Part shown: piece by piece, positions 1 through 62,241 of the stretch
Position numbering within the stretch: position 1 is the first letter of the stretch
How the letters are laid out: every line of letters begins with the position of its first letter
DNA from: a virus
DNA length: 64,000 nucleotides
Virus record (IMG/VR): IMGVR_UViG_3300005537_000002
Coordinates: 62,001-126,000 of that record
Strand: one strand, 5' to 3'
Notes under the pieces: generated by a model
Databases searched by the model: none
What the model saw: only the letters and a program-made list of their open reading frames with translations
Told to the model about the DNA's origin: nothing
Made by a program: the position numbers and the translations under genes

Positions 1-234
1 TACGCACGGACGGTGTACCATAGATACAGATGCGATGATGGGAGTACACCATTCTACCTACAAACTGGTACGATACTGCCAACTACAGAGAATCCGAATG
101 GGGATACAGTTTATACTCTAACCCAACGATATAGAGAGTTGACCGAACGAGTACTAGCGGACGGTGACATGCAGTATGCTAGACCTAGTTGTCAACAGCA
201 TGTACTGATGTACGGCCACAAGAGAGGAATCTGA
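1..234 (+). CDS. queE: 7-carboxy-7-deazaguanine synthase (QueE), C-terminal end only
   Basis: This is the last part of a gene that begins before the window; the reading frame is open from base 1. The visible tail ends in QQHVLMYGHKRGI, which matches the conserved QueE C-terminus (PQxH...WGNKRGV type). QueE is a radical-SAM enzyme that turns 6-carboxy-tetrahydropterin into 7-carboxy-7-deazaguanine, the step before QueC in preQ0 synthesis. Its catalytic N-terminal CxxxCxxC part is outside the window. The next gene, folE, starts 2 bases after the stop, so the two are probably co-transcribed. The folE, dpdA and gat-queC neighbours strongly support the assignment, although only about 77 residues are visible. 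Confidence 0.75.
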   Translation, partial: YARTVYHRYRCDDGSTPFYLQTGTILPTTENPNGDTVYTLTQRYRELTERVLADGDMQYARPSCQQHVLMYGHKRGI

Positions 235-236
235 CA

Positions 237-1028
237 TTGACAACGCAGCGTATGCCGTTCAACTTAAGTGCGGAACTTGTTGCCGGTCTTCGTAAGCAAT
301 CCGTACGAGCTTGTCTGCAGTGTGGCGTAACGGAAGCCCAGTCGTTGGAGTTAACGGGTAGAGGTTTGCAGACACATAGGGTTAAGAGTGGGGAAGTGAC
401 AGAGGACATTGTAATGTGCCACGACTGTCACTTCCGCCAGCATAATGACCCGGAAGTGGACCGAGCACGATATCAAACTGTGCTAGCTTCTACTCGTAAT
501 TGGCTGGAATCCTTAGGGGTAGACCTAACACACGGCGACTTCAGAGAAACTGCTAGGAGAGTGGCTACATACTACTTAGGACACTTTAAGTCTCCGGATT
601 CTGTTGAGTACGAGTTAGAACAACTACGACAGGCGAAGTTCTCGACAGGATATAGTGGTATGGTAGCTGTATCCGGCATTCAAGCGGACGGTCTCTGTCC
701 TCACCATCTGCTACCTGTACGATATACTATTAAAGTAGGGTATCTCCCCTACGAAGGTAGAGCAATCGGCCTGTCTAAGCTGCCGAGGGTAGTTGAGTTA
801 TGTGCCAGCATACCTCGATTACAAGAAGATATCACGATGTGGATAGCGGAAGAGGTTTCGCTAGCTGCAGAAACTCCTCACGTAGCTGTGCAAATTGTGG
901 GGAAGCACAGTTGTATGGAGATTAGGGGCGTCCGTCAACGTAAGTCGGATACTACAACTACAGTGCTTCTAGGTCACTTCCTAGAAGAAACTAATTCTCA
1001 CCGCGAATTCCTAGCGCTCACCGACTAG
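237..1028 (+). CDS. folE: GTP cyclohydrolase I (FolE) with N-terminal zinc-finger-like segment
   Basis: FolE converts GTP to 7,8-dihydroneopterin triphosphate, the entry step to folate and to 7-deazaguanine bases. The C-terminal two thirds carry family signatures: CPHH (zinc Cys and catalytic His region), GLSKLPR, and GKHSCMEIRGV with the second His-x-Cys zinc pair. The N-terminal 60 residues hold an extra CxxC...CxxC pair (CLQC and CHDC), which is not part of standard FolE and may form a zinc ribbon. I chose the TTG at 237 because AGAGAGG lies about 9 bases upstream; a GTG at 189 would overlap queE by 45 bases and has no such site. The product is 263 aa, a little longer than typical FolE. 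The context argues for a role in DNA base modification rather than folate. Confidence 0.93.
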   Translation: MTTQRMPFNLSAELVAGLRKQSVRACLQCGVTEAQSLELTGRGLQTHRVKSGEVTEDIVMCHDCHFRQHNDPEVDRARYQTVLASTRNWLESLGVDLTHGDFRETARRVATYYLGHFKSPDSVEYELEQLRQAKFSTGYSGMVAVSGIQADGLCPHHLLPVRYTIKVGYLPYEGRAIGLSKLPRVVELCASIPRLQEDITMWIAEEVSLAAETPHVAVQIVGKHSCMEIRGVRQRKSDTTTTVLLGHFLEETNSHREFLALTD

Positions 1029-1032
1029 GGAT

Positions 1033-1530
1033 GTGGTAGTGCAAGAAGAAAGGTACACTTTTGTGAATCAACCTAGACCAGCGGGTACGTTTACGTACAC
1101 AGACCACGAGTTTAATGAAGAGTTCCTGCATTTCATGCAGGAGTGTATGGAAACGTATCGAGAACGAGCTCAAGAGTACAATAACGCAGCGGCTAGTACG
1201 TCGATGTTAGAGTACTTTGAGCCGGATGTGGTGATCCCAAACCACTTTGCAGCGTGCTACATGTACGTTAAACATAAGTTCAGTCGGTTCGCAAACTGCC
1301 TGAAGAACTACATCGCAAAGGTAGAACTCGTTGCTGACACTCGAGTTAGTTACGAACGAGCGGAAGATAGCATACGAGACTTAGTCAACTACGCCGCATT
1401 TGAGGCAGTCATTCTACGACTGCACTACAAGTGGGTACAGTCCCAACTACGTACGCCTCAAGCTATCTATGATCAAGCTCCAGAGATTGACGTAGATCAA
1501 CAAGTTCCCGTTGTGAACGGACACCACTAA
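1033..1530 (+). CDS. Possible nucleotide-modification-associated domain 1 (Nmad1/DUF1599-like) protein
   Basis: This 165-residue protein sits between folE and dpdA. The middle and C-terminal parts resemble the Nmad1/DUF1599 pattern as I recall it: an early helix with EFLHFMQECMETY, a central K..R..N stretch (KHKFSRFANCLK) and a late DSIRDLVNYAAFEAV helix. That family is found beside phage base-modification genes and is related to MazG-like all-alpha nucleotide-binding proteins. A role in handling modified or precursor nucleotides would fit, but this is inference. The start is uncertain: GTG at 1033 lies only 4 bases after AGGG, and GTG at 1039 is an alternative. The C-terminal 20 residues are polar and end in GHH. 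Confidence 0.5.
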   Translation: MVVQEERYTFVNQPRPAGTFTYTDHEFNEEFLHFMQECMETYRERAQEYNNAAASTSMLEYFEPDVVIPNHFAACYMYVKHKFSRFANCLKNYIAKVELVADTRVSYERAEDSIRDLVNYAAFEAVILRLHYKWVQSQLRTPQAIYDQAPEIDVDQQVPVVNGHH

Positions 1531-1547
1531 ACGAAAGGTGCAGGCTG

Positions 1548-2351
1548 ATGCAAGCGTCAATCATCAGTCCTGTATCTTTACTAGATGCAGTTTCATTACG
1601 ACAGAAACTGCATCTAGTCTTAGTACAGGAGCTGGAGAGAAGCAAGGCGTATGCAGACTTCTATACGAACGTTATACGGCCTAGAGGTGACTACCTTATT
1701 CTAGATAATGGCGCGTTCGAGCTAGGAGAAGCTGCTAGTGCTGAACTACTCCTCAAATGGGTACGATTGCTGCATCCGGATGAAATTGTGTTACCGGATG
1801 TACGCGAGGATTCCTTTGCTACGCTTAGTCGCACAACCGACTTCATACAGCACGTCTTACCGTTGATAGACTACCCGATTAAGTGTATGGCAGTGCCTCA
1901 AGGGAAAAACTTGCAAGAGTGGATGATGTGCTTGCATATTATGCTGTCTATACCCCAGATTACGTGTATCGGACCTTATGAGGAAAGTGCCGACTGGTTC
2001 CCTTACGGGGGTAGACTTTCGCTACTCGAACGTATCAAGTCCGATGTGCTGGGTAAGGTCGACGTACATCTCTTAGGCATGGATGAAGACCTAGTAGAGT
2101 TGAGGGTAGGTGGACCTACGGTCTGTAGTTGGGTGCGTAGTACGGACTCATCAAAACCAGTGTGCTATGGTCTAGGGGGTGTGAAGTTAGATGCACAGTA
2201 CGGTCCTAGGGGTGTGAAGTATCCTGGTAGATCGAAGGACTTCTTCGAGTGTACTGTATCACCCACACAACGTGAAGCGGTACTGCATAATGTGGATGTA
2301 CTGCACGGGTGGTTAACTGATGAGTCGAGGGTGAAGTGTGTGGTACTGTAG
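1548..2351 (+). CDS. dpdA: DNA 7-deazaguanine transglycosylase (DpdA-like, TGT superfamily)
   Basis: DpdA proteins are tRNA-guanine transglycosylase relatives that exchange guanine in DNA for a 7-deazaguanine base. The protein (267 aa) shows a TGT-like pattern. LILDNGAFE (residues 50-58) corresponds to the TGT DSGGFQ motif, with Asp53 as the candidate general base. STDSSKP places Asp200 as the candidate nucleophile, and HPDEIVLPDV (76-85) is a typical barrel strand. It is short compared with tRNA TGT and lacks an obvious CxCxxC zinc site, as in the compact phage DpdA forms. The ATG at 1548 follows GAAAGG. A perfect 15-bp inverted repeat (1580-1618) lies inside the 5' coding part. Neighbours queE, folE and gat-queC supply the substrate base. 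Confidence 0.82.
   Translation: MQASIISPVSLLDAVSLRQKLHLVLVQELERSKAYADFYTNVIRPRGDYLILDNGAFELGEAASAELLLKWVRLLHPDEIVLPDVREDSFATLSRTTDFIQHVLPLIDYPIKCMAVPQGKNLQEWMMCLHIMLSIPQITCIGPYEESADWFPYGGRLSLLERIKSDVLGKVDVHLLGMDEDLVELRVGGPTVCSWVRSTDSSKPVCYGLGGVKLDAQYGPRGVKYPGRSKDFFECTVSPTQREAVLHNVDVLHGWLTDESRVKCVVL
1580..1618. repeat. 15-bp perfect inverted repeat inside dpdA
   Basis: The arms 1580-1594 and 1604-1618 are exactly complementary, with a 9-base loop. The repeat lies about 30 bases inside the dpdA coding sequence. An mRNA hairpin this close to the start could slow translation or act as an RNase site; that role is inference. Confidence 0.85.
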
Positions 2352-2352
2352 A

Positions 2353-2447
2353 CTCGAGTTCAAACTCGAGGACATGTGGATAGGGGTGTACTGGAGAGAC
2401 ACCCCTAGTCGTATAGACATATGGGTATGCATACTACCATGCATACC
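2353..2447 (+). promoter_or_regulatory. Leader with three successive hairpins before gat-queC
   Basis: Between the dpdA stop and gat-queC lie three perfect hairpins: CTCGAGTT/AACTCGAG at 2353-2370, TAGGGGTGT/ACACCCCTA at 2381-2407 and GGTATGCAT/ATGCATACC at 2424-2447. None is followed by a clear T-run, so they do not look like simple terminators. They may modulate read-through or mRNA stability, or form a structured leader. The short pattern does not match a preQ1 riboswitch that I can recognise. Confidence 0.5.
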
Positions 2448-2473
2448 AATCCATATATGGAGGGAGCAGCACA

Positions 2474-4048
2474 GTGTGTAGTATATCCGGTGTGATTATG
2501 CCCGAGGGTACTTCGTACCTGAGTACGAGGCTACGGCATATCATAGATCAGGCATGTGAGAGAGGTCGTGACAGTTGGGGTACTGTCACGCTGCATACAG
2601 ATCATACATACAGCAGCGTACGCTATACTGGTAGTCCGATCGAGACAGGGGTCGCTGGTACGTATCTACCTAGTAGCGCTAGGATATGTATATCGACATG
2701 TAGGGCGGAGCCAACTACAGAGTGGGTACGGGAGAAAGGTATATACGATATACCACCATTCGTACATGGGAATTGGGCTTGTGCTCATAATGGATGCATA
2801 GCCAACGATAAAGAGTTGGTACAGCGGTATGGACTATCGTTGGGTACGTCTATAGATACAGCGGTTATACCGGCCGTGTTGGACAAGATATGTCCCGACG
2901 AACTCGATCTGGATCGTATACAGGAGTTCCTACGAGACGAGATCGAGGGTTCGTATGCTCTTGCGCTTGTGAATAGACGACATCCGGATACGCTTATCCT
3001 AGCCGTGAACTATCAACAACTATACATCGCGTATGATCAGCAGGCGGGTGCGTTGTTCTTCACCTCTATGGAAGAACACCTGTACGATGATACAGATATA
3101 CACCGCAGACTCGTACAGGGAGGGGTAGTAGAAGTACCTGCATACTCCATGCAGGTAGTACATCTTCCATCCCATAGGGGTAGTACATCTGTCATGGGTA
3201 GCAGTACTACCCTGCATGCAGGGTACAGTACAGATACAGGGCAGGGTAGTAGTACAGCCATGCAGGGTACAGTACAGATACAGGGCAGGTCCTTAAGGCA
3301 GTCCAGGGATGTACATAAGGCCCTGGTGGTCTGTAGTGGTGGACTAGACAGTACAGTAGCTGCTAGGGAGATGCAGGTACGTGGGTACGATGTTACACTG
3401 CTGCACTTCCTGTACAAGTGCAGGGCACAGGAGGGTGAGGTAGAGGCTGTACGTAAGATAGCAGCTGCCATGAACGTACCCTACCTATTCTGGGAGACAG
3501 ACTTCTTCACCAAGGTAGGTGGGTCTAGACTCACTAACACACACGGAGAGATCAACCGAGAAGGTGGTGGAATAGCAGGAGCAGAACTAGCTTGGGAGTG
3601 GTGTCCCGCAAGAAACACTGTCTTTCTAGCTATGGCTGCAGCTATAGCCGAAGTGCACGACTTTGAGTGTATTGTGTTAGGAGCAAATTTAGAAGAGGCC
3701 GGAAGTTATGCAGATAATACTCTCCCATTCATACGTAAGTTGGATGCAGTACTACCGTATGCACTCAATCTACACCACTACGTACGACTGGAGGCACCTC
3801 TCGTCAACCTGATGAAGCACGAAATCGTAGCATTGGGCCTGAAAAATGGTGCGCCGATGGAGCATTCGTACTCGTGCTATGAGTACGGAGAGCACCACTG
3901 TAACAACTGCGGTCCTTGCTTCTTACGTAAGACGGCGTTTAAGATGAACGGGACAGTGGATCCAGTGTTCGAGCATCTGTCTGAGGACGAGTTTTGGAGT
4001 GGGTGCGTTCCCTACTCCAAACGATCGGATCCAGCCATAGTTCGTTAG
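2474..4048 (+). CDS. gat-queC: Glutamine amidotransferase-QueC fusion (GAT-QueC)
   Basis: Residues 1-230 form a class II glutamine amidotransferase that begins MCSISGV, so Cys2 becomes the N-terminal nucleophile; GNWACAHNG is a typical Ntn-GATase segment. Residues about 280-524 are QueC, the ATP-dependent 7-cyano-7-deazaguanine synthase. It has the PP-loop SGGLDS at 288-293 and four zinc cysteines at 468, 476, 479 and 482 (CNNCGPC). In archaea GAT-QueC takes part in archaeosine formation, and phage 9g uses a Gat-QueC to make 2'-deoxyarchaeosine, so ammonia transfer to preQ0 in DNA is the likely job. GGAGGGAG precedes the GTG start. The linker (about 235-280) is low-complexity and contains a 31-bp repeat. 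Codon use in the first 1 kb, rich in GTA, ATA and AGG, differs from the last 500 bases. Confidence 0.9.
   Translation: MCSISGVIMPEGTSYLSTRLRHIIDQACERGRDSWGTVTLHTDHTYSSVRYTGSPIETGVAGTYLPSSARICISTCRAEPTTEWVREKGIYDIPPFVHGNWACAHNGCIANDKELVQRYGLSLGTSIDTAVIPAVLDKICPDELDLDRIQEFLRDEIEGSYALALVNRRHPDTLILAVNYQQLYIAYDQQAGALFFTSMEEHLYDDTDIHRRLVQGGVVEVPAYSMQVVHLPSHRGSTSVMGSSTTLHAGYSTDTGQGSSTAMQGTVQIQGRSLRQSRDVHKALVVCSGGLDSTVAAREMQVRGYDVTLLHFLYKCRAQEGEVEAVRKIAAAMNVPYLFWETDFFTKVGGSRLTNTHGEINREGGGIAGAELAWEWCPARNTVFLAMAAAIAEVHDFECIVLGANLEEAGSYADNTLPFIRKLDAVLPYALNLHHYVRLEAPLVNLMKHEIVALGLKNGAPMEHSYSCYEYGEHHCNNCGPCFLRKTAFKMNGTVDPVFEHLSEDEFWSGCVPYSKRSDPAIVR
3215..3289 (+). repeat. 31-bp direct repeat in the GAT-QueC linker
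   Basis: Bases 3215-3245 and 3259-3289 are identical over 31 bases, with a 44-base period. Because 44 is not a multiple of three, the two copies are read in different frames and give unlike peptides (HAGYSTDTGQG and AMQGTVQIQG). The repeat falls exactly where the amidotransferase and QueC domains are joined. Confidence 0.9.
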
Positions 4049-4932: not shown

Positions 4933-4961
4933 TTGTATACTTGAGTATAGTACACTATAAT
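4933..4961 (+). promoter_or_regulatory. Promoter TTGTAT-17-TATAAT
   Basis: TTGTAT at 4933-4938 and TATAAT at 4956-4961 are separated by 17 bases. It belongs to the recurring CCTCTTG...TATAATAT promoter family of this window and lies directly upstream of the methyltransferase-like gene at 5004. It also rules out the upstream TTG at 4941 as that gene's start. Confidence 0.75.
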
Positions 4962-5003
4962 ATATTGTATAAGTATTCAAGCGTATACGAGGTTTTTAGC
5001 ACA

Positions 5004-6089
5004 GTGAGGTACACATTTAGTCCGTTCGTGACTAGGAGACCCAAGTTGCAGGAAGCAGTTGAGTACGCCACACCCATGTGGCGTACTCAGAGGCCTACAG
5101 TATTTCCTAAGTCGACTATGGACGTAATTACGTCATCTCCCCAGTTCGTTGACGTAGCTGTCAATAGTGGGTCGATGGTCTTCTCTCGTGCACTTGCTTC
5201 TCAACCTACTGCAAGCAATGACCAGAACATCTTCGCTATCGAGTCCTTAAAGTCGGTTTTGCAGTGTACTACCGACTTGAACGTGCCTAGAGACGACTGG
5301 TTCGAACGCTTCTGTGCTAACGTCCATCCAGACAACCTCAATTACGAACCCGGCTACATTACGGACCGGTTCGTGTACTCTCCTGCGAAGTCTAGGCCTC
5401 ACATGCTACGAAAGACAGCTGTGTACTTAGACACTCTACTGCAACGATACCCTACTTCACTTATGAGAGCTTGTGTGGGGTACGCTATACTGCGTACGTA
5501 TACTTGGCGAGAAGTGAGTTGGAGTAGACTGTCTAAACAGGGCAAGCTTATACAAGGGAGGAGGCCACACAAACTATGGGAGCCGATTTGTAGACGAGCT
5601 TGGTCTCTACGACTGGCAGCGGAAGAGTTTGCAAAGACTCCCACGAGAAGGCTACATCAAATATCGGAGACTAGCGTTCTACAGGCTATACGAACCTTCG
5701 ACATCTATACGGGTGCAGTCGTGTATGCAAACCCTCTGTGGCCGTGGATGTCCACAGACGACTGGTCCGCGTATAGTCAGTTTACCGCTGACCTGAACTC
5801 CATACTTATGCAATGTCCGGTCAAGACTTCCAACTGGAGTGACAATAGGAGCCTTGATACTATCTACAAGGAGGTGACTAGTTGGATTGAAGAATCCTTT
5901 GCAAGAGGCGCCGGATTCTTCATACTCAACACGCAAAGCTCTAACTTTCCACAACCTGACGACCTATATAGTTGGTTGAGAACTAGATACGGTCGTCATC
6001 TGCTACTTGTCGAAGAAGTAGCTACCCAAATTAGCGCCCAACAGCCGTTTTCTGAGTGGTTTGGAACTATCCGGAATCCGACACTATAA
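5004..6089 (+). CDS. D12-like DNA adenine methyltransferase paralogue with NPLW motif
   Basis: This 361-residue protein is a paralogue of the protein at 14143-15207. The two align through QFVDVAVNSGS versus QFITLSAGNGG (motif I, SAM binding), DWFERF versus EWFERW, YLDTLL in both, and ANPLWPW versus IDPVYPW (motif IV). In D12-class N6-adenine methyltransferases motif IV is (D/N/S)PP(Y/F/W). Here it reads NPLW with Asn243 at the catalytic position, and motif I is degraded (NSGS instead of GNGG), so activity is doubtful. The GTG at 5004 is preferred: it follows GAGG and gives an N-terminus that lines up with the paralogue. A TTG at 4941 lies inside the promoter. It could be a partner or decoy subunit of the other protein. 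Confidence 0.55.
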   Translation: MRYTFSPFVTRRPKLQEAVEYATPMWRTQRPTVFPKSTMDVITSSPQFVDVAVNSGSMVFSRALASQPTASNDQNIFAIESLKSVLQCTTDLNVPRDDWFERFCANVHPDNLNYEPGYITDRFVYSPAKSRPHMLRKTAVYLDTLLQRYPTSLMRACVGYAILRTYTWREVSWSRLSKQGKLIQGRRPHKLWEPICRRAWSLRLAAEEFAKTPTRRLHQISETSVLQAIRTFDIYTGAVVYANPLWPWMSTDDWSAYSQFTADLNSILMQCPVKTSNWSDNRSLDTIYKEVTSWIEESFARGAGFFILNTQSSNFPQPDDLYSWLRTRYGRHLLLVEEVATQISAQQPFSEWFGTIRNPTL

Positions 6090-6748: not shown

Positions 6749-6964
6749 ATGGATGTAAAATCAACCCTTCGCATAGCTTTCCTACTTATTGGTAGGCAAA
6801 TCGCGGCTGAGTTTCTGTCACAGGCAGTTTGTAAGAGACTCGAGCGAGAAGATATACCAGATGACTCGTGGATGTCTGAGAGCCACGAGTATCCATTTCA
6901 CACTATCGTAGCTCAAGCTATGTGCGACGCTTTATTCGATATACAGAGTACCTCGCACGACTAG
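6749..6964 (+). CDS. Hypothetical protein, 71 aa
   Basis: The ATG at 6749 is preceded by AAAAGGTAA. The sequence is acidic in its second half (EREDIPDDSW) and has no membrane helix or motif I can name. It lies between two membrane-protein genes in the operon that starts at 6411. Confidence 0.5.
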   Translation: MDVKSTLRIAFLLIGRQIAAEFLSQAVCKRLEREDIPDDSWMSESHEYPFHTIVAQAMCDALFDIQSTSHD

Positions 6965-6978
6965 AACGGAGCTTGTGT

Positions 6979-8184
6979 TTGAGCGAAAAAAGGAGGGTAC
7001 GACTTTTAGGTATTAGTCTCATAGTAGTGATGGTGCTGTTCATAGTGGTGATGTCGCTACTATTATGGAACTTACTACTCAAACCTACGGAGGTAAAACA
7101 TCATATGACTCTTAATACTATGGGTGGCTATGTATTTCCGGACGACGCAGTTTGCGACGCACCTAGTCAGTACTCCGACGGAAGGGTTATCAATACTCTT
7201 AACGTCGAGTATCTACATGTTGATTCTGGTGGAGCACTTGTAACCCTGACTAGTGGGTGTAACGCGTATAACGACTCGAATGTAGCTTCTGTCAAAGCAC
7301 ACAGCAACAGGCAGTTCGTAACTGTCAGTGGGGATAGTGGTGGGTTTCAAGTACTCATAAGCGATACTCAGCTTACAAACACCTTTATCAGTACGGTACA
7401 AGCATTTCTCTCGAAGATAGGGTTTACCGGAGTTGAGTTGGACTTTGAGGACTTCGGTTCTTGGACTTCCTCTCAGTATGCCAGTTATGTAGCGTTCGTC
7501 AAACGTCTTAGTACTGAGTTGCATAGCACAGGGCACTTACTAGCTATCGACTGCCCAGCGATATCCGACCAAACCTATCAGAGCTACTATCCTCACTGGT
7601 CATATAAAGACTTCGACGGGGTTCAAGTAGAGTTACGCGTGATGGCGTACGACTACGAATACGACCAGGGTGCAGGTAATCCGATAGCGCCTATAGACTG
7701 GATCACCAACATTTGTAAGTGGACTAGGTCTCAAATCACTGATCCTAGTAGGATCACTATCATACTCAACTCTTACGGGTACCACGGAGTGAGAAATAAG
7801 TACGCCGCTAATCGAGATACATACAGCCAGTCAAAAGCCTACTACGGTTTTAATACAGCTTCAAGGGATGCTTCTTCTGGTGAGATGACTTGGTCTGTAG
7901 GGGGCGAGGTCTACTACTATACGGACAGCGAAACGTTGAACCAGAAAGTGACCGCTGTGCTAAACTCTGGTACGGGTATCAACAACATTGCCATCTTCCA
8001 CTTAGGTGGAGGAAACAAGTGGCCAACGGTTACTCCTCCACCTACACCGGTGTCCACACCAACAGTTACGAGTGACGTGTCTCCAGCACTCTCTTCTCTA
8101 CTGAAGTGGATGGAAGCCGAACTACCGAGTTGGTACGCAGCTAACTTCGACTCGACTGGAAAGTATATTGGAGGTAGTCACTAG
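6979..8184 (+). CDS. Membrane-anchored GH18-like glycoside hydrolase domain protein
   Basis: The TTG at 6979 follows GGAG by 8 bases and gives a short basic N-terminus (MSEKRRVR), one signal-anchor helix (about 9-33) and an extracellular domain. This domain has the GH18 chitinase-fold signature GVELDFEDF with Asp155 and Glu157, and a later VMAYDY strand. The pattern resembles YaaH-type spore proteins and the GH18-related half of PgaB. A proline/threonine linker (TPPPTPVSTPT) leads to a final 45-residue segment. It would act on an amino-sugar polymer outside the cell. The next genes are a two-helix membrane protein and a processive GT2 synthase, so a joint role in a GlcNAc-type polysaccharide is likely. 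It ends on the G of the next start codon (GTG 8184). Confidence 0.72.
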   Translation: MSEKRRVRLLGISLIVVMVLFIVVMSLLLWNLLLKPTEVKHHMTLNTMGGYVFPDDAVCDAPSQYSDGRVINTLNVEYLHVDSGGALVTLTSGCNAYNDSNVASVKAHSNRQFVTVSGDSGGFQVLISDTQLTNTFISTVQAFLSKIGFTGVELDFEDFGSWTSSQYASYVAFVKRLSTELHSTGHLLAIDCPAISDQTYQSYYPHWSYKDFDGVQVELRVMAYDYEYDQGAGNPIAPIDWITNICKWTRSQITDPSRITIILNSYGYHGVRNKYAANRDTYSQSKAYYGFNTASRDASSGEMTWSVGGEVYYYTDSETLNQKVTAVLNSGTGINNIAIFHLGGGNKWPTVTPPPTPVSTPTVTSDVSPALSSLLKWMEAELPSWYAANFDSTGKYIGGSH

Positions 8185-8651
8185 TGCCATCAACGTATTA
8201 CGAGGACTATGTAATACCTCCACCATTTACATTACCAGCTAAACAGGTTGGACAGATGACTCTACCGGAAGCGTTATCGATGGCACAGTGTGTAAGCGAC
8301 CCGTACGCTAAGAGGCGTAGGAAGGGGTATAGCATGATCACTGTGCTATATCTGCTGACGTATAGCGTGGTTGCGTTCGACATAGATAGTATAGTTTACT
8401 GGAACATCGAAACGTGGACCTTTCGAGTCGTGCTGTGGATAGCAGTTATGATAGTATGGGCTAACTTCGTTAGCGGAACCCTACGTATACGGCCGACTAG
8501 ACGGCAGGTTGTAGAGATGGCTACGACACTAAGTATGAAAGCAGTCTCGATCTCTAAGCTGGCACGCGGTCGGAAAATCTCTTTCCCAAAGGTTATACCA
8601 AACGAGGATACCACTACCTACTTAAGAGCCATTAAGCGGAAGCTAACGTGA
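8184..8651 (+). CDS. Two-helix membrane protein, PgaD-like in size and position
   Basis: The GTG at 8184 overlaps the preceding TAG by one base. The 155-residue protein has a proline-rich cytoplasmic N-terminus, two membrane helices (about residues 51-68 and 79-97) and a basic C-terminal tail. I see no named family motif. Its size, its topology and its place between a GH18-type protein and a processive GT2 synthase match PgaD, the small subunit that works with PgaC in poly-N-acetylglucosamine synthesis. The functional link is inference from layout. Confidence 0.5.
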   Translation: MPSTYYEDYVIPPPFTLPAKQVGQMTLPEALSMAQCVSDPYAKRRRKGYSMITVLYLLTYSVVAFDIDSIVYWNIETWTFRVVLWIAVMIVWANFVSGTLRIRPTRRQVVEMATTLSMKAVSISKLARGRKISFPKVIPNEDTTTYLRAIKRKLT

Positions 8652-9994
8652 GATCTGTTTATAAAAGTATTACGTATAGTGCATTGTGGATGGTTACGGC
8701 TGCTATAGCAGCTTCAACTAGGTTTATACAACCGCATCCATTCGATACGCCGTTTCTCGATACGATGAGACACGTTATAGTCTTCTTTGCGTCTATACTA
8801 CTAGCGAAATACTTCTTCTATATGGTAGTAGCTCCATTCTACGACGTAATAGAGAGTCGCAGAGTCGTTACTACGCTTATGGCGGACTACTACCCGTTAG
8901 TGTCAGTGATGATACCTGCCTGGAACGAAGAGGTAGGTCTACTAGGTACGGTCAAGACGCTACTAGACTCCACCTACAGACATGTGGAGCTCGTCATTGT
9001 GAACGATGGTAGCACAGATGGCTCGCACGCAATGATGCTCAACTTCGTCAGTAAGTATAACGAGCAGATGACTGACGTACCCGAGTACAAGCGCATACGT
9101 ATACTCTACCACTACCAACCAAACGGAGGCAAGGGAAGCGCACTAAACACAGCGATCCAACTGTCTCACGGAGCTATACTACTGTCCATTGACGCTGACT
9201 GTCACGTTCACGCCCGCTGTATTGAGGAGTTCGTGAACGCATTCCGTAACCCTAAAGTTATGGCTGCCGTCGGTAACGTGAGGGTAGGCAATACAAAGTC
9301 ACTCGTGGGTACAATCCAGTACCTAGAATATATCTTCGGATTCTACTTTAAGAAAGCGGACAGCTTGCTCAACACCATCTATATTATCGGTGGAGCGGCT
9401 GGTGCATTCCGGCGGGAAGTGTTTCAAGTGATTGGTGGGTATAATACCAAGAACATTACGGAAGACATTGAGCTATCCGTCCGAATACAGGAACAAGGTT
9501 GGAAAATCGTTTACTGTCCTGGAGCACTCGTACTAACTGAGGGAGCGTCTACACTCACAGGCTTGAAGAAGCAACGCTACCGTTGGAAGTACGGTCGGTT
9601 CCAAACGTTTATGCAGCATCGCAACTTGTTCTTCTCGACTGAGCGTAGGCATAACAAGTTGCTGTGCTGGGTGATACTACCGCTAGCGATATTTGGGGAG
9701 GTGCAACTCGGACTTGAGTTACTATTTATCACTATGCTATACGTATTCGCACTCCTATCGGGTGACTTCTCGGCATTTCTGAGTGGTGTATTTGTAGTCT
9801 CTCTCATGTTCGGCGTACAAGCACACGACAGTGGAGAGTTCAACATCAGCACTCTACTGCTAGCACCTATAGGGTGGCTACTATTCTACGTCACCACCTA
9901 CGTCGAGGTGTACGCACTTATCCGGAGTATATGGAATCTAATCCGCAAACGCGACGTACAGTGGCAGAAGTGGAAACGAACCGGTGTACAATGA
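8648..9994 (+). CDS. Processive membrane glycosyltransferase, GT2 (PgaC/NodC/HasA type)
   Basis: The protein is 448 aa. It has two N-terminal helices, then a GT-A domain: MIPAWNEEVGL, VNDGSTDGS, NGGKGSALN (UDP-sugar binding), SIDADCHV (DxD-like), TEDIEL (catalytic acidic pair) and QRYRW, the QxxRW motif that marks processive synthases. Two or more helices follow. Such enzymes polymerise UDP-GlcNAc or UDP-GlcA and extrude the chain. All key residues are present, so activity is expected. The GTG start overlaps the previous stop (GTGA). With the GH18-like and two-helix neighbours it forms a polysaccharide synthase cassette. A virus-encoded hyaluronan or chitin synthase, as in chloroviruses, is the nearest known parallel. 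Confidence 0.9.
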   Translation: MRSVYKSITYSALWMVTAAIAASTRFIQPHPFDTPFLDTMRHVIVFFASILLAKYFFYMVVAPFYDVIESRRVVTTLMADYYPLVSVMIPAWNEEVGLLGTVKTLLDSTYRHVELVIVNDGSTDGSHAMMLNFVSKYNEQMTDVPEYKRIRILYHYQPNGGKGSALNTAIQLSHGAILLSIDADCHVHARCIEEFVNAFRNPKVMAAVGNVRVGNTKSLVGTIQYLEYIFGFYFKKADSLLNTIYIIGGAAGAFRREVFQVIGGYNTKNITEDIELSVRIQEQGWKIVYCPGALVLTEGASTLTGLKKQRYRWKYGRFQTFMQHRNLFFSTERRHNKLLCWVILPLAIFGEVQLGLELLFITMLYVFALLSGDFSAFLSGVFVVSLMFGVQAHDSGEFNISTLLLAPIGWLLFYVTTYVEVYALIRSIWNLIRKRDVQWQKWKRTGVQ

Positions 9995-55866: not shown

Positions 55867-56271
55867 ATGACACTGGAAGAACTGAACGAACGGTTACCGG
55901 AAGAGTTGAGAAGCCGTACGTTAGAGGGAATCAACGAACGCATCATCAACCATCCAGCGTTGGGGGTTACATATTGTATCTCGCAAGGGCAATTGGACCG
56001 TACAATTGCGGGAGATGAGTGGTCAGAGTACGCGAGTAACTTAGTCTTAGCCGACATTCAGCAGGAGGTTGTGGCAGCTCGAATGCGTCTGTTCTTAGGA
56101 GACATCTTCTCGAAGATGGTTGAGTTCGGTGCCGAACTTATCGAACTGGAAGCTGATAGATGGCGTCGGCTACTAGACTACAACGGAGACTGGACGAGTT
56201 CTCTCAACTATGATAACGATTGGTTTGCTGTGAGACTTAGTAAAGAGCTTGAAAAGAAGGGGTTACTATGA
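55867..56271 (+). CDS. Hypothetical protein, 134 aa
   Basis: ATG 55867 follows AGAGGAGG. Acidic helical protein (LEELNERLPEELRSR, EFGAELIELEADRWRRLL). Overlaps the next gene by 4 bases. Unknown. Confidence 0.55.
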   Translation: MTLEELNERLPEELRSRTLEGINERIINHPALGVTYCISQGQLDRTIAGDEWSEYASNLVLADIQQEVVAARMRLFLGDIFSKMVEFGAELIELEADRWRRLLDYNGDWTSSLNYDNDWFAVRLSKELEKKGLL

Positions 56272-56600
56272 GTGACAATCCGTATGAGTTGCGTAGTTTT
56301 GATCGAGAAGCACTGATAAAGGCAGTGCAACCCGAACATCCGGATGAGTTTAGCGCGTATTACTACTTGATGGAGCAGGCAGGCTTGTTCCGATGGCTGG
56401 CATTCGAGACAGATGAAATGTCTACCGCAGCTCAGGAGCAGGTCGCGGAGACATTTGAGAGCGTTGCCGCAGCAAAAATCTGCTGCTTTGACTTTGACTC
56501 TGTGTCAACAGACTGCAACCTGCTACTAGTTTATACTGACACCCAGTTACATAGCGTACTAACGCACGCGTGTCAGTACTACGAAGAGGAGGTCGAGTAG
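56268..56600 (+). CDS. Hypothetical protein, 110 aa
   Basis: ATGA start overlapping the previous stop. Acidic protein with two adjacent cysteines (AAKICCFDFD). Unknown. Confidence 0.5.
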   Translation: MSDNPYELRSFDREALIKAVQPEHPDEFSAYYYLMEQAGLFRWLAFETDEMSTAAQEQVAETFESVAAAKICCFDFDSVSTDCNLLLVYTDTQLHSVLTHACQYYEEEVE

Positions 56601-56606
56601 ACTACT

Positions 56607-56930
56607 ATGCAGACCGGCGGATATGAAGGGTACACGCTACGCAAGTTCGATTACGTCGACGTACGTGAGATCACTGGCAGATACGAGATGAGCCTTGAGG
56701 ATTGCCAAGCATATGTACAAGGGCATATACAAGTAGACGTCACCATACCTTTTAGTGCAGAAGTCGTAGGTAAGGTAGGGGTAGTAAGAAAGGTTGCAGA
56801 AGTAATAGAGTACCTAAGGCCGGACCTTATATGCTTTCAGTACGTCGTAGTAGGAGGTGCCTTGTTAGTAATCGCCCATCGCAACGGATCGTTCGCTAGA
56901 CAACTGCTACAAAGGTGTACGTATGAGTGA
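56607..56930 (+). CDS. Hypothetical protein, 107 aa
   Basis: GAGGAGG lies upstream at a long distance. Strand-rich C-terminus (LICFQYVVVGGALLVIAHR). It overlaps the next gene by 8 bases. Unknown. Confidence 0.5.
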   Translation: MQTGGYEGYTLRKFDYVDVREITGRYEMSLEDCQAYVQGHIQVDVTIPFSAEVVGKVGVVRKVAEVIEYLRPDLICFQYVVVGGALLVIAHRNGSFARQLLQRCTYE

Positions 56931-57318
56931 CAGGCTAGACGACGAGTATGCTAAGGCTGTAGAAGACCTAGCCCGATCGGAGTTGCGAGGAGAGGTTACT
57001 GCAGAGGAGTTGGTGTGGCTGTACTCTAACCTACAGTGGTGGCGAGATGCTCTCCAACGCATTTACGAAGACCAAATGAGGTTTATCGAGTCGATGGCTC
57101 GATCGATGGAGTCCATCGGCAAGATAAAGAAGGGAAGTGACACGCAACGGACGTCACAGGAAGCTAGAGAACGGAAGTCTGCTCTCTTCAACCGTATTAA
57201 AAGTCGTAAGCGTTACCTGGAGTGTATCAAAGCACGTAAGTTGACGGTAGACAACTACATCTACATACGAAACCGACAAGCACAGATCTCGGACGCAGAA
57301 GGGGACGACAATGGGTAG
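56923..57318 (+). CDS. Helical charged protein, 131 aa
   Basis: Highly charged helices throughout (DDEYAKAVEDLARSELRGE, then SQEARERKSALFNRIKSRKRYLECIKARK), consistent with a helical hairpin or coiled coil. Overlaps the next gene by 8 bases. Unknown. Confidence 0.55.
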   Translation: MSDRLDDEYAKAVEDLARSELRGEVTAEELVWLYSNLQWWRDALQRIYEDQMRFIESMARSMESIGKIKKGSDTQRTSQEARERKSALFNRIKSRKRYLECIKARKLTVDNYIYIRNRQAQISDAEGDDNG

Positions 57319-60765: not shown

Positions 60766-61568
60766 GTACGTGGTCTGGACTAACGGTACTCGATGAGGAG
60801 ACGCAATACCTCATCGAGTACGTAGAAGCGTTACTAGGGGAGCTGCGGTATACTCGTAGTCAGGTTGAGTACGTAACTGAAGCTGGTTTCTCAGTCCGTA
60901 GGGTACTATTAGAAGGGGAGCACTACCCTAGAGGCTCTTGGTGCTATGAGATACGGTACGAGATTCCTGAAGCGGACGTAGTAGCACACCCCAGCCGTAT
61001 TGGATTCCGTCGAGGTACTAAGTTGTGGAAAGTCCAGTTGGATCATCACACCGACCAGCAAATGATCAAGCAGCATTATGTCAGTCGGTATGCGAGAACC
61101 ATTAACCTATGGCTCTCTCACTATAAAGCGTATGAGTTCGTCGCCATAGACGACGTTAGTAGCTTACCAGAACCCGTATGTAGAGTTGAGTTCGTGGACG
61201 ACTACCCAAAACTGGAGACGTATTGGGGGGTTACTAACGAACGTCTGAAGTCTTACTGGCTGCGGTTCGCATTTAGTCATTGGAAGCTCATTAGAACACA
61301 GTTACATGAGTCCGAGGGGTTTACCATTTGCAAGACGCTAGTCGGTACTGTACCCGGATACGTTATTGGAGTAGATTATCCATCGTCCGCTAAGGATACT
61401 AGCATCTCTCTATACTATTATGATCCGAACGCGGACGTAGACGAGATTCAAGCGGAATCTGCTAAGTTAGCCAGAAGTTTACACGAGGTAGGAGAGGGTA
61501 TCTACGTCCGTACGAACTTGATGGGCATATCTCCGTATGCCCATATTCGAGTCTTCTTAACCGACTGA
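60762..61568 (+). CDS. Hypothetical protein, 268 aa
   Basis: ATGA start overlaps the previous stop. The largest protein of this part, with strand-rich segments (SWCYEIRYEIPEAD, TKLWKVQLDHHTDQQ) and a helical end. A 13-bp perfect hairpin (60786-60821) lies at the 5' end of the gene. Unknown. Confidence 0.55.
   Translation: MSTWSGLTVLDEETQYLIEYVEALLGELRYTRSQVEYVTEAGFSVRRVLLEGEHYPRGSWCYEIRYEIPEADVVAHPSRIGFRRGTKLWKVQLDHHTDQQMIKQHYVSRYARTINLWLSHYKAYEFVAIDDVSSLPEPVCRVEFVDDYPKLETYWGVTNERLKSYWLRFAFSHWKLIRTQLHESEGFTICKTLVGTVPGYVIGVDYPSSAKDTSISLYYYDPNADVDEIQAESAKLARSLHEVGEGIYVRTNLMGISPYAHIRVFLTD
60786..60821. repeat. 13-bp perfect inverted repeat inside the 60762 gene
   Basis: GTACTCGATGAGG (60786-60798) pairs with CCTCATCGAGTAC (60809-60821) around a 10-base loop, about 25 bases after the start codon. 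Confidence 0.85.
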
Positions 61569-61580
61569 CAAGGAGGATCT

Positions 61581-61958
61581 ATGACAGTAGACCCAGATCG
61601 AGAGTGGGACGACGAGTTCGATCCACGCAACCTACATCAAGTACGAGAGGTGATCTTAGACGCACTGTCGTTTAGAGTCACTCAGAACTCTGCCCGTAAG
61701 TTATACCCTAATGTATACAACTGGCTGTGTACGTATGCTTCGTCCATGAGTAACGTCCAGCACTCACCCGACGATAGGATTCAGTCCTTTGACTTGTACA
61801 ACAGAGTCCGTTGGTACGGAGAGGAAGATTTGAGCTCTCCGACGCGGGCTGTCACTGACAACGGACTACAACCTGTGCTACCTGGATTCGAACCTCCACA
61901 GTCAAGCCCAAGACGTTATCATATTACTATCGAAGTATTAGACAACTGGAAGGATTAG
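61581..61958 (+). CDS. Hypothetical protein, 125 aa
   Basis: ATG 61581 follows AAGGAGG. Acidic N-terminus (DPDREWDDEFDPRN) and Pro/Ser-rich later part. Unknown. Confidence 0.55.
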   Translation: MTVDPDREWDDEFDPRNLHQVREVILDALSFRVTQNSARKLYPNVYNWLCTYASSMSNVQHSPDDRIQSFDLYNRVRWYGEEDLSSPTRAVTDNGLQPVLPGFEPPQSSPRRYHITIEVLDNWKD

Positions 61959-61962
61959 GTAT

Positions 61963-62193
61963 ATGTATAGAGCAGAGTGGGATAGGAGACTGCGAGAGAG
62001 CAAACGTCAGTTGGAGGAGATAGCTGAAGAGTTCTATCCGACGTGGCTCACAGAACTCGCCTCACTAACTGGAGAGAGTGTAGAGACGATAGACCGTAAG
62101 GTGATGTACATTGCAGAGCACACGACGTTAGGAGACAAGTACATAGTCATCAATACCTTGCTTATGTACTACCGACTCCCGTGGAAAGGCTAA
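61963..62193 (+). CDS. Hypothetical helical protein, 76 aa
   Basis: Charged helices at the start (DRRLRESKRQLEEIAEEF). Begins 4 bases after the previous stop and is the last gene before the terminator at 62210. Unknown. Confidence 0.5.
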   Translation: MYRAEWDRRLRESKRQLEEIAEEFYPTWLTELASLTGESVETIDRKVMYIAEHTTLGDKYIVINTLLMYYRLPWKG

Positions 62194-62209
62194 ACGAGCA
62201 ACTACAAGT

Positions 62210-62241
62210 AGAGGTGCAAACGTAGTTTGCACCTCTTGTTT
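62210..62241 (+). terminator. Terminator overlapping the next -35
   Basis: AGAGGTGCAAAC (62210-62221) pairs with GTTTGCACCTCT (62225-62236), followed by TGTTTTC, which belongs to the next promoter. Confidence 0.9.

Follow-up and report, generated by a model that had tools for sequence, protein, structure and literature searches.

A predicted deoxyarchaeosine cluster in an uncultured phage combines a Gat-QueC of archaeal type with a CP220-type DpdA

Which modified base does this phage locus make, and which enzyme would place it in the DNA? Phage DNA carrying deazaguanines is known in two kinds, partly substituted, as in Enterobacteria phage 9g, and fully substituted, as in Campylobacter phage CP220. 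The genes considered here lie at the left edge of a 64,000-nucleotide stretch of DNA (the window), which comprises bases 62,001–126,000 of a virus record of 177,637 bases (~178 kb) from an uncultured phage. The original prediction had read them, after the example of 9g, as an operon that puts deoxyarchaeosine or a related 7-deazaguanine into DNA. Genes for a terminase, a portal protein and a full-length DNA polymerase I of bacterial type, also present in the record, show that it is a tailed phage, whose host is most likely a bacterium. A megablast search of the first 20 kb of the window against phages returned no match. Anaerolinea MAG contigs with a Gat-QueC were considered as a clue to the host and rejected; their DpdA1 is 9g-like, and they appear to be phage sequence binned in error.

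The gene cluster and its predicted product

As had been described, the end of queE, folE, dpdA and a GAT-QueC fusion lie together in one direction; with orf1033, all five genes were located on the + strand of the window (Table 1). A search upstream for queD and the rest of queE found both, so that the left edge of the window cuts through a six-gene cluster, queD-queE-folE-orf1033-dpdA-gatqueC (record 60,995–66,048), in which the intergenic gaps are at most 49 bases, with the exception of 122 bases ahead of gat-queC. The whole QueE protein matched its NCBIfam model with an E-value of 5.6e-68, above the curated cut-off, and is 56% identical to the homologue on a second contig, L049. The radical-SAM motif of this QueE is C-x4-C-x2-C (CDYQHCSWC); all five of the homologues aligned have the usual C-x3-C-x2-C. 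The folE gene has a TTG start and overlaps queE, and its product contains an additional Cys-rich N-terminal stretch and retains the Zn ligands LCPHH and HSCM.

Table 1. Genes of the predicted deoxyarchaeosine cluster
Gene and predicted product	Window position	Record position	Strand	Evidence
queD (upstream of the window)		60,995–61,405		score above NCBIfam curated cut-off
queE, 7-carboxy-7-deazaguanine synthase	1–234 (3' end)	61,455–62,234 (whole gene)	+	NCBIfam TIGR03365
folE, GTP cyclohydrolase I	189–1028		+	Pfam PF01227, E 2.8e-43
orf1033, putative DpdA partner, PHROG 1485/DUF1599-like	1033–1530		+	PHROG 1485, E 5.7e-5
dpdA, predicted compact TGT-fold guanine transglycosylase, CP220/immuto clade	1548–2351		+	alignment, AlphaFold, Foldseek, profile, tree
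gat-queC, predicted glutamine amidotransferase domain + preQ0 synthase	2474–4048		+	Pfam, phrog_10428, 9g alignment, tree

The last gene of the cluster encodes a full-length Gat-QueC, which scored against QueC (E 2.3e-50) and GATase_7 (E 9.4e-9) in Pfam and against phrog_10428 (E 8e-109), and which is 36–39% identical to the Gat-QueCs of 9g and related phages. When aligned with the 9g protein, it was found to keep Cys2, Asn106-Gly107, the PP-loop SGGLDS and four Zn-type Cys residues, and it has the make-up of its class, namely an N-terminal-Cys class II amidotransferase fused to a QueC with a PP-loop and four Cys. Its best cellular matches are archaeal, with identities of up to 43%, and the tree placed the proteins of the window and L049 with archaeal enzymes (94/90), separate from those of the 9g-like phages (97/97).

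Judged by its sequence, the cluster holds a complete predicted gene set for making the archaeosine base from GTP. FolE, QueD and QueE would lead from GTP to 7-carboxy-7-deazaguanine, from which the QueC half of Gat-QueC would form preQ0; the amidotransferase half would turn the nitrile into the archaeosine amidine. The compact DpdA would then exchange guanine for the modified base, with a covalent intermediate at Asp200 and with Asp53 as acid/base, and the resulting deoxyarchaeosine (dG+) would block host nucleases. The pathway is complete, has one direction of transcription and is kept in the diverged relative L049. Because that relative, with a DpdA only 43% identical to the one in the window, has the identical gene order, a partner gene standing in the place of orf1033, the cluster appears to have been maintained and not to be a chance arrangement. 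Plasmid DNA in E. coli has been shown to acquire dG+ through the Gat-QueC and DpdA of 9g (PMC6884629). We regard it as very probable that a 7-deazaguanine base is produced by this cluster and takes the place of guanine in the phage DNA, as dG+; this is the best-supported reading, and from it we infer the product, DNA as the final target, and protection.

A different product, dPreQ0 or dADG, would be expected if the amidotransferase half were inactive or if hydrolysis dominated. CP220 carries dADG, which in CP220 and CPt10 replaces 100% of dG (PMC8306585), and there are phages, e.g. Dp-1, that have been placed in the dG+ group yet make no dG+. However, Cys2, the RAEPT motif and HNG in the amidotransferase half are invariant with 9g, a dG+ maker, and we consider such a product distinctly improbable.

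Several features near the cluster, or in its relative, are recorded here in their own right. Window positions 6922–8184 code for a protein of glycosyl hydrolase family 18 and 8648–9994 for one of glycosyltransferase family 2; such cargo is unusual near DNA modification genes. Related proteins (29% identity, E 6e-53), neither of which had a match in Pfam, are encoded at window 4941–6089 and at record 55,877–56,953; in the latter copy, DLTAGGG and DPAWPW recall motifs of adenine methyltransferases, whereas both are lost in the copy beside the dpd cluster, which may be an inactive paralogue. On L049, an ORF resembling a LAGLIDADG-type homing endonuclease (8080–9090) overlaps the end of gat-queC.

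The compact transglycosylase

The 267-amino acid product of the gene at 1548 had no match in Pfam or NCBIfam, and matched phrog_20335 (function unknown) as well as phage proteins that carry the annotation DNA guanine transglycosylase. Its AlphaFold model was confident (pLDDT 92.6), and the structural comparison with DpdA gave a clear outcome: in Foldseek the top 50 PDB matches of the model were all tRNA-guanine transglycosylases (TGTs) or DpdA, the DpdA structure 7ui4 among them (best E 4.9e-7). In agreement, a sequence profile of the family matched 7ui4 with an E-value of 3.7e-6, with the His and the final Asp aligned, and no alignment to another family arose. Sequence and model together thus identify the protein, as had been proposed, as a predicted TGT/DpdA-fold enzyme.

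The catalytic pair expected for this enzyme, Asp53 and Asp200, is present. Neither residue varies across 22 aligned sequences of the family, and the same holds for Asp84, His174 and the motifs LDNGAFE, PD and H-x-LG. In a profile comparison with DpdA1, Asp53 and Asp200 aligned with Asp72 and Asp215 of 9g, and His174 with 9g His196. By established TGT chemistry, Asp53 is presumably the acid/base and Asp200 the nucleophile.

The protein does not group with the 9g enzyme. DpdA1, the 9g type, split from the compact family of the window with a support of 99/97; the DpdA1 profile scored the window protein at E 2.1, and the family profile scored 9g DpdA at E 0.14, versus E 4.3e-40 for CP220 DpdA, which had been left out of that profile. 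Likewise, hhalign gave 99.7% for the window family against CP220 and 82% against DpdA1, a distant relationship to the experimentally tested DpdA1. The window DpdA fell into the same clade as CP220 and immuto (91/90), along with BSP7, Youna2 and MA9V-3; the backbone inside this clade was poorly resolved, and the sole well-supported sister of the window protein is that of L049. DpdA2, the nt-1 type, is recognized by loss of the conserved His at DpdA1 position 196; the corresponding His174 is invariant in the window family. The sequence thus assigns this DpdA to the compact CP220-type clade, outside the DpdA1 clade of 9g, a membership that is no proof of full replacement. In the nomenclature we take the compact clade to be DpdA3, a name reportedly given by Cui and colleagues in 2023 to the full-replacement subfamily. 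Net charge, tried as an indicator of DNA binding, failed to separate the DpdA clades.

The prediction of deoxyarchaeosine or a related 7-deazaguanine in DNA therefore fared unevenly. The pathway and its product are well supported by genes, residues and fold, and the enzymes are those of 9g; as a close match 9g had to be given up, with a DpdA from another clade and a Gat-QueC that groups with archaeal cellular enzymes. The system appears to join an archaeal-type Gat-QueC to a CP220-type DpdA, and is not of the 9g type.

The identity of the transglycosylase also bears on whether the genes might serve modification of host tRNA, with queuosine or archaeosine, and not of DNA. For phages with preQ0 genes that lack DpdA, a boost to tRNA Q has been suggested (PMC6884629). 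Against this, the cluster contains a TGT-fold gene from a clade seen here in phages only, which falls together with CP220, a phage with modified DNA; at 267 amino acids its product is far shorter than tRNA TGTs, which have 355–577 in the structures that matched; and a search of the window yielded no tRNA gene. A search for bacterial genomes encoding the compact DpdA, made with one 8-residue pattern and hence a weak test, found none. We hold a tRNA target to be highly implausible, and keep dG+ in phage DNA as the favoured reading.

A possible further TGT-like gene lies outside the window at record 7,512–8,675. It encodes a 387-amino acid protein with a Cys-rich N-terminus and the TGT-like motifs LLDSGAF and STDSAGP. 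This was the only place in the record to be matched by phrog_1279 (queuine tRNA-ribosyltransferase), and the match was weak (E 3.6e-4 for the genome). This protein is a possible second transglycosylase, and could share or complicate the task of DpdA.

The gene ahead of dpdA and the timing of replacement

It had been suggested that the gene at 1033 adds a further step or controls precursor pools. When a profile of orf1033 and its L049 counterpart was run against all ORFs of the loci, the matches were mostly the gene immediately upstream of dpdA, and PHROG 1485 matched, in addition to orf1033, four homologues sited in that position elsewhere. These matches mark orf1033 as a conserved dpdA partner, with distant homologues often directly upstream of dpdA in this clade. 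DUF1599 (Pfam nucleotide modification associated domain 1) gave weak matches in the homologues of orf1033 only, all below the curated cut-off. Because the homologues match PHROG 1485 and, weakly, this domain, it is reasonable to suppose that orf1033 acts on precursor pools. On the other side, the protein, which is predicted to be all-helical, lacks the ExxE...ExxD metal motif of all-alpha NTP pyrophosphatases, which is present in the MazG neighbours of relatives, and its structure model was of low confidence (pLDDT 64.9) with no PDB match, so that we assign it no fold. A match to Glyco_transf_61 (E 0.0095) was below the Pfam cut-off and was judged to be due to chance.

The neighbours of dpdA were counted across clades. 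In a profile search, a pyrophosphatase-like or kinase-like gene was found within 2.2 kb of dpdA at 25 of 36 loci of the compact clade versus 2 of 47 DpdA1 loci (Fisher p 1e-10, not corrected for shared ancestry), a count that favours the compact clade, from whose loci the profiles were built. Two compact-clade phages were scored as negative in it despite a PRA-PH gene (immuto) and HD and kinase genes (CP220). An independent Pfam tally of 128 compact-clade neighbours gave MazG 7, dUTPase 4, DUF1599 4 and Thymidylate_kin 3, and is not a random sample, since four partner ORFs were added by hand (L054, L061 and two at L079) and long ORFs and que/fol ORFs were excluded. These four families were absent among the 25 families listed for 112 DpdA1 neighbours, where singletons may be hidden. 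The pattern resembles that of phages which rebuild the dNTP pool before replication.

Such a resemblance raises the possibility of a pre-replicative route, in which the compact DpdA would swap the base on a deoxynucleotide (e.g. dGMP), the product would be phosphorylated and inserted by the polymerase, and partner enzymes would remove dGTP; near-complete replacement would follow, as in T4, SPO1 or S-2L type systems. Consistent with this, relatives of the window DpdA cluster with MazG, DUF1599-like, dUTPase, HD and dNMP-kinase-like genes, in which DpdA1 loci differ, and the dpdA of the fully substituted CP220 has an HD+P-loop gene and a thymidylate-kinase-like gene as its flanking neighbours. 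For the Campylobacter phages, an earlier proposal is a modified-dGTP route (PMC6884629), and MazZ of S-2L is a MazG-like dGTP diphosphohydrolase that feeds a full-replacement pathway (PMC8342488). Because a search of the rest of this record turned up no gene for MazG, an HD protein or thymidylate kinase, however, we rate the nucleotide-level route as unlikely; orf1033 with its missing motif, low-confidence model and lack of a fold match speaks in the same direction, and the part of pool enzymes in this phage is therefore put forward as a hypothesis. Insertion was reportedly argued by Cui and colleagues in 2023 to be post-replicative in all such phages, which also counts against this route. Somewhat less likely still is the extended proposal that the clade, aided by partners resembling pyrophosphatases, HD proteins or kinases, swaps guanine on nucleotides and that, with the archaeal-type Gat-QueC, essentially every guanine in this phage becomes dG+.

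At other loci (L013, L014, L016, L026, L034 and others), DNA polymerase-sized genes lie directly downstream of the compact dpdA. They start with a Cys-rich segment resembling uracil-DNA glycosylase (CxxCPL...FVGEAPG...KPFVGxSG), and one neighbour scores as a UDG.

Comparison with known systems

The pairing of a compact DpdA with a Gat-QueC seems new among the matches listed in the annotated phage collection, where none of the records listed with a full-length Gat-QueC was a compact-DpdA record. Erwinia phage Ep032 has a diverged Gat-QueC, without a compact DpdA in the stretch examined. The archaeal cellular Gat-QueCs (Nitrososphaerota, Marsarchaeota) have the same fusion, an identity of 39–43% and a place in the same tree group as the window protein; unlike in the phage cluster, their genomes have queE adjoining gat-queC, yet no dpdA of either tested type nearby.

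With 9g (FolE, QueD, QueE, Gat-QueC, DpdA1) the window shares the enzymes, the predicted product and the active-site residues of Gat-QueC, but its DpdA is of another clade and shorter (267 versus 317 amino acids), the gene order differs, its Gat-QueC is on another branch and the orf1033 partner is added. The fully substituted Campylobacter phages CP220 and CPt10 have their DpdA in the clade of the window, but match Gat-QueC over the QueC half only, and the HD and kinase neighbours of CP220 dpdA differ from those here. Flavobacterium phage immuto, Bacillus phage BSP7 and Weizmannia phage Youna2 have a same-clade DpdA, FolE, QueD, QueE and a nucleotide-enzyme-like gene near dpdA; no Gat-QueC was present in the stretches examined, BSP7 and Youna2 have a plain QueC and immuto, unlike the window, has QueF and a formyltransferase gene near dpdA. 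The likeness to datZ-mazZ-purZ of cyanophage S-2L is in logic only, nucleotide-pool enzymes lying beside a base-replacement gene; the base is another, there is no transglycosylase, and the activity of mazZ has been shown, whereas the role of orf1033 is putative.

Published accounts leave open or dispute whether full replacement of guanine takes place before or after replication, and the link between the compact clade and nucleotide-pool genes offers a testable handle on this question. Were a genome to contain much dG+, a positively charged base, it would be of interest both for DNA chemistry and for evasion of defence. The cluster described here would pair the base chemistry of the 9g kind with an inserting enzyme from the clade of the CP220 kind.
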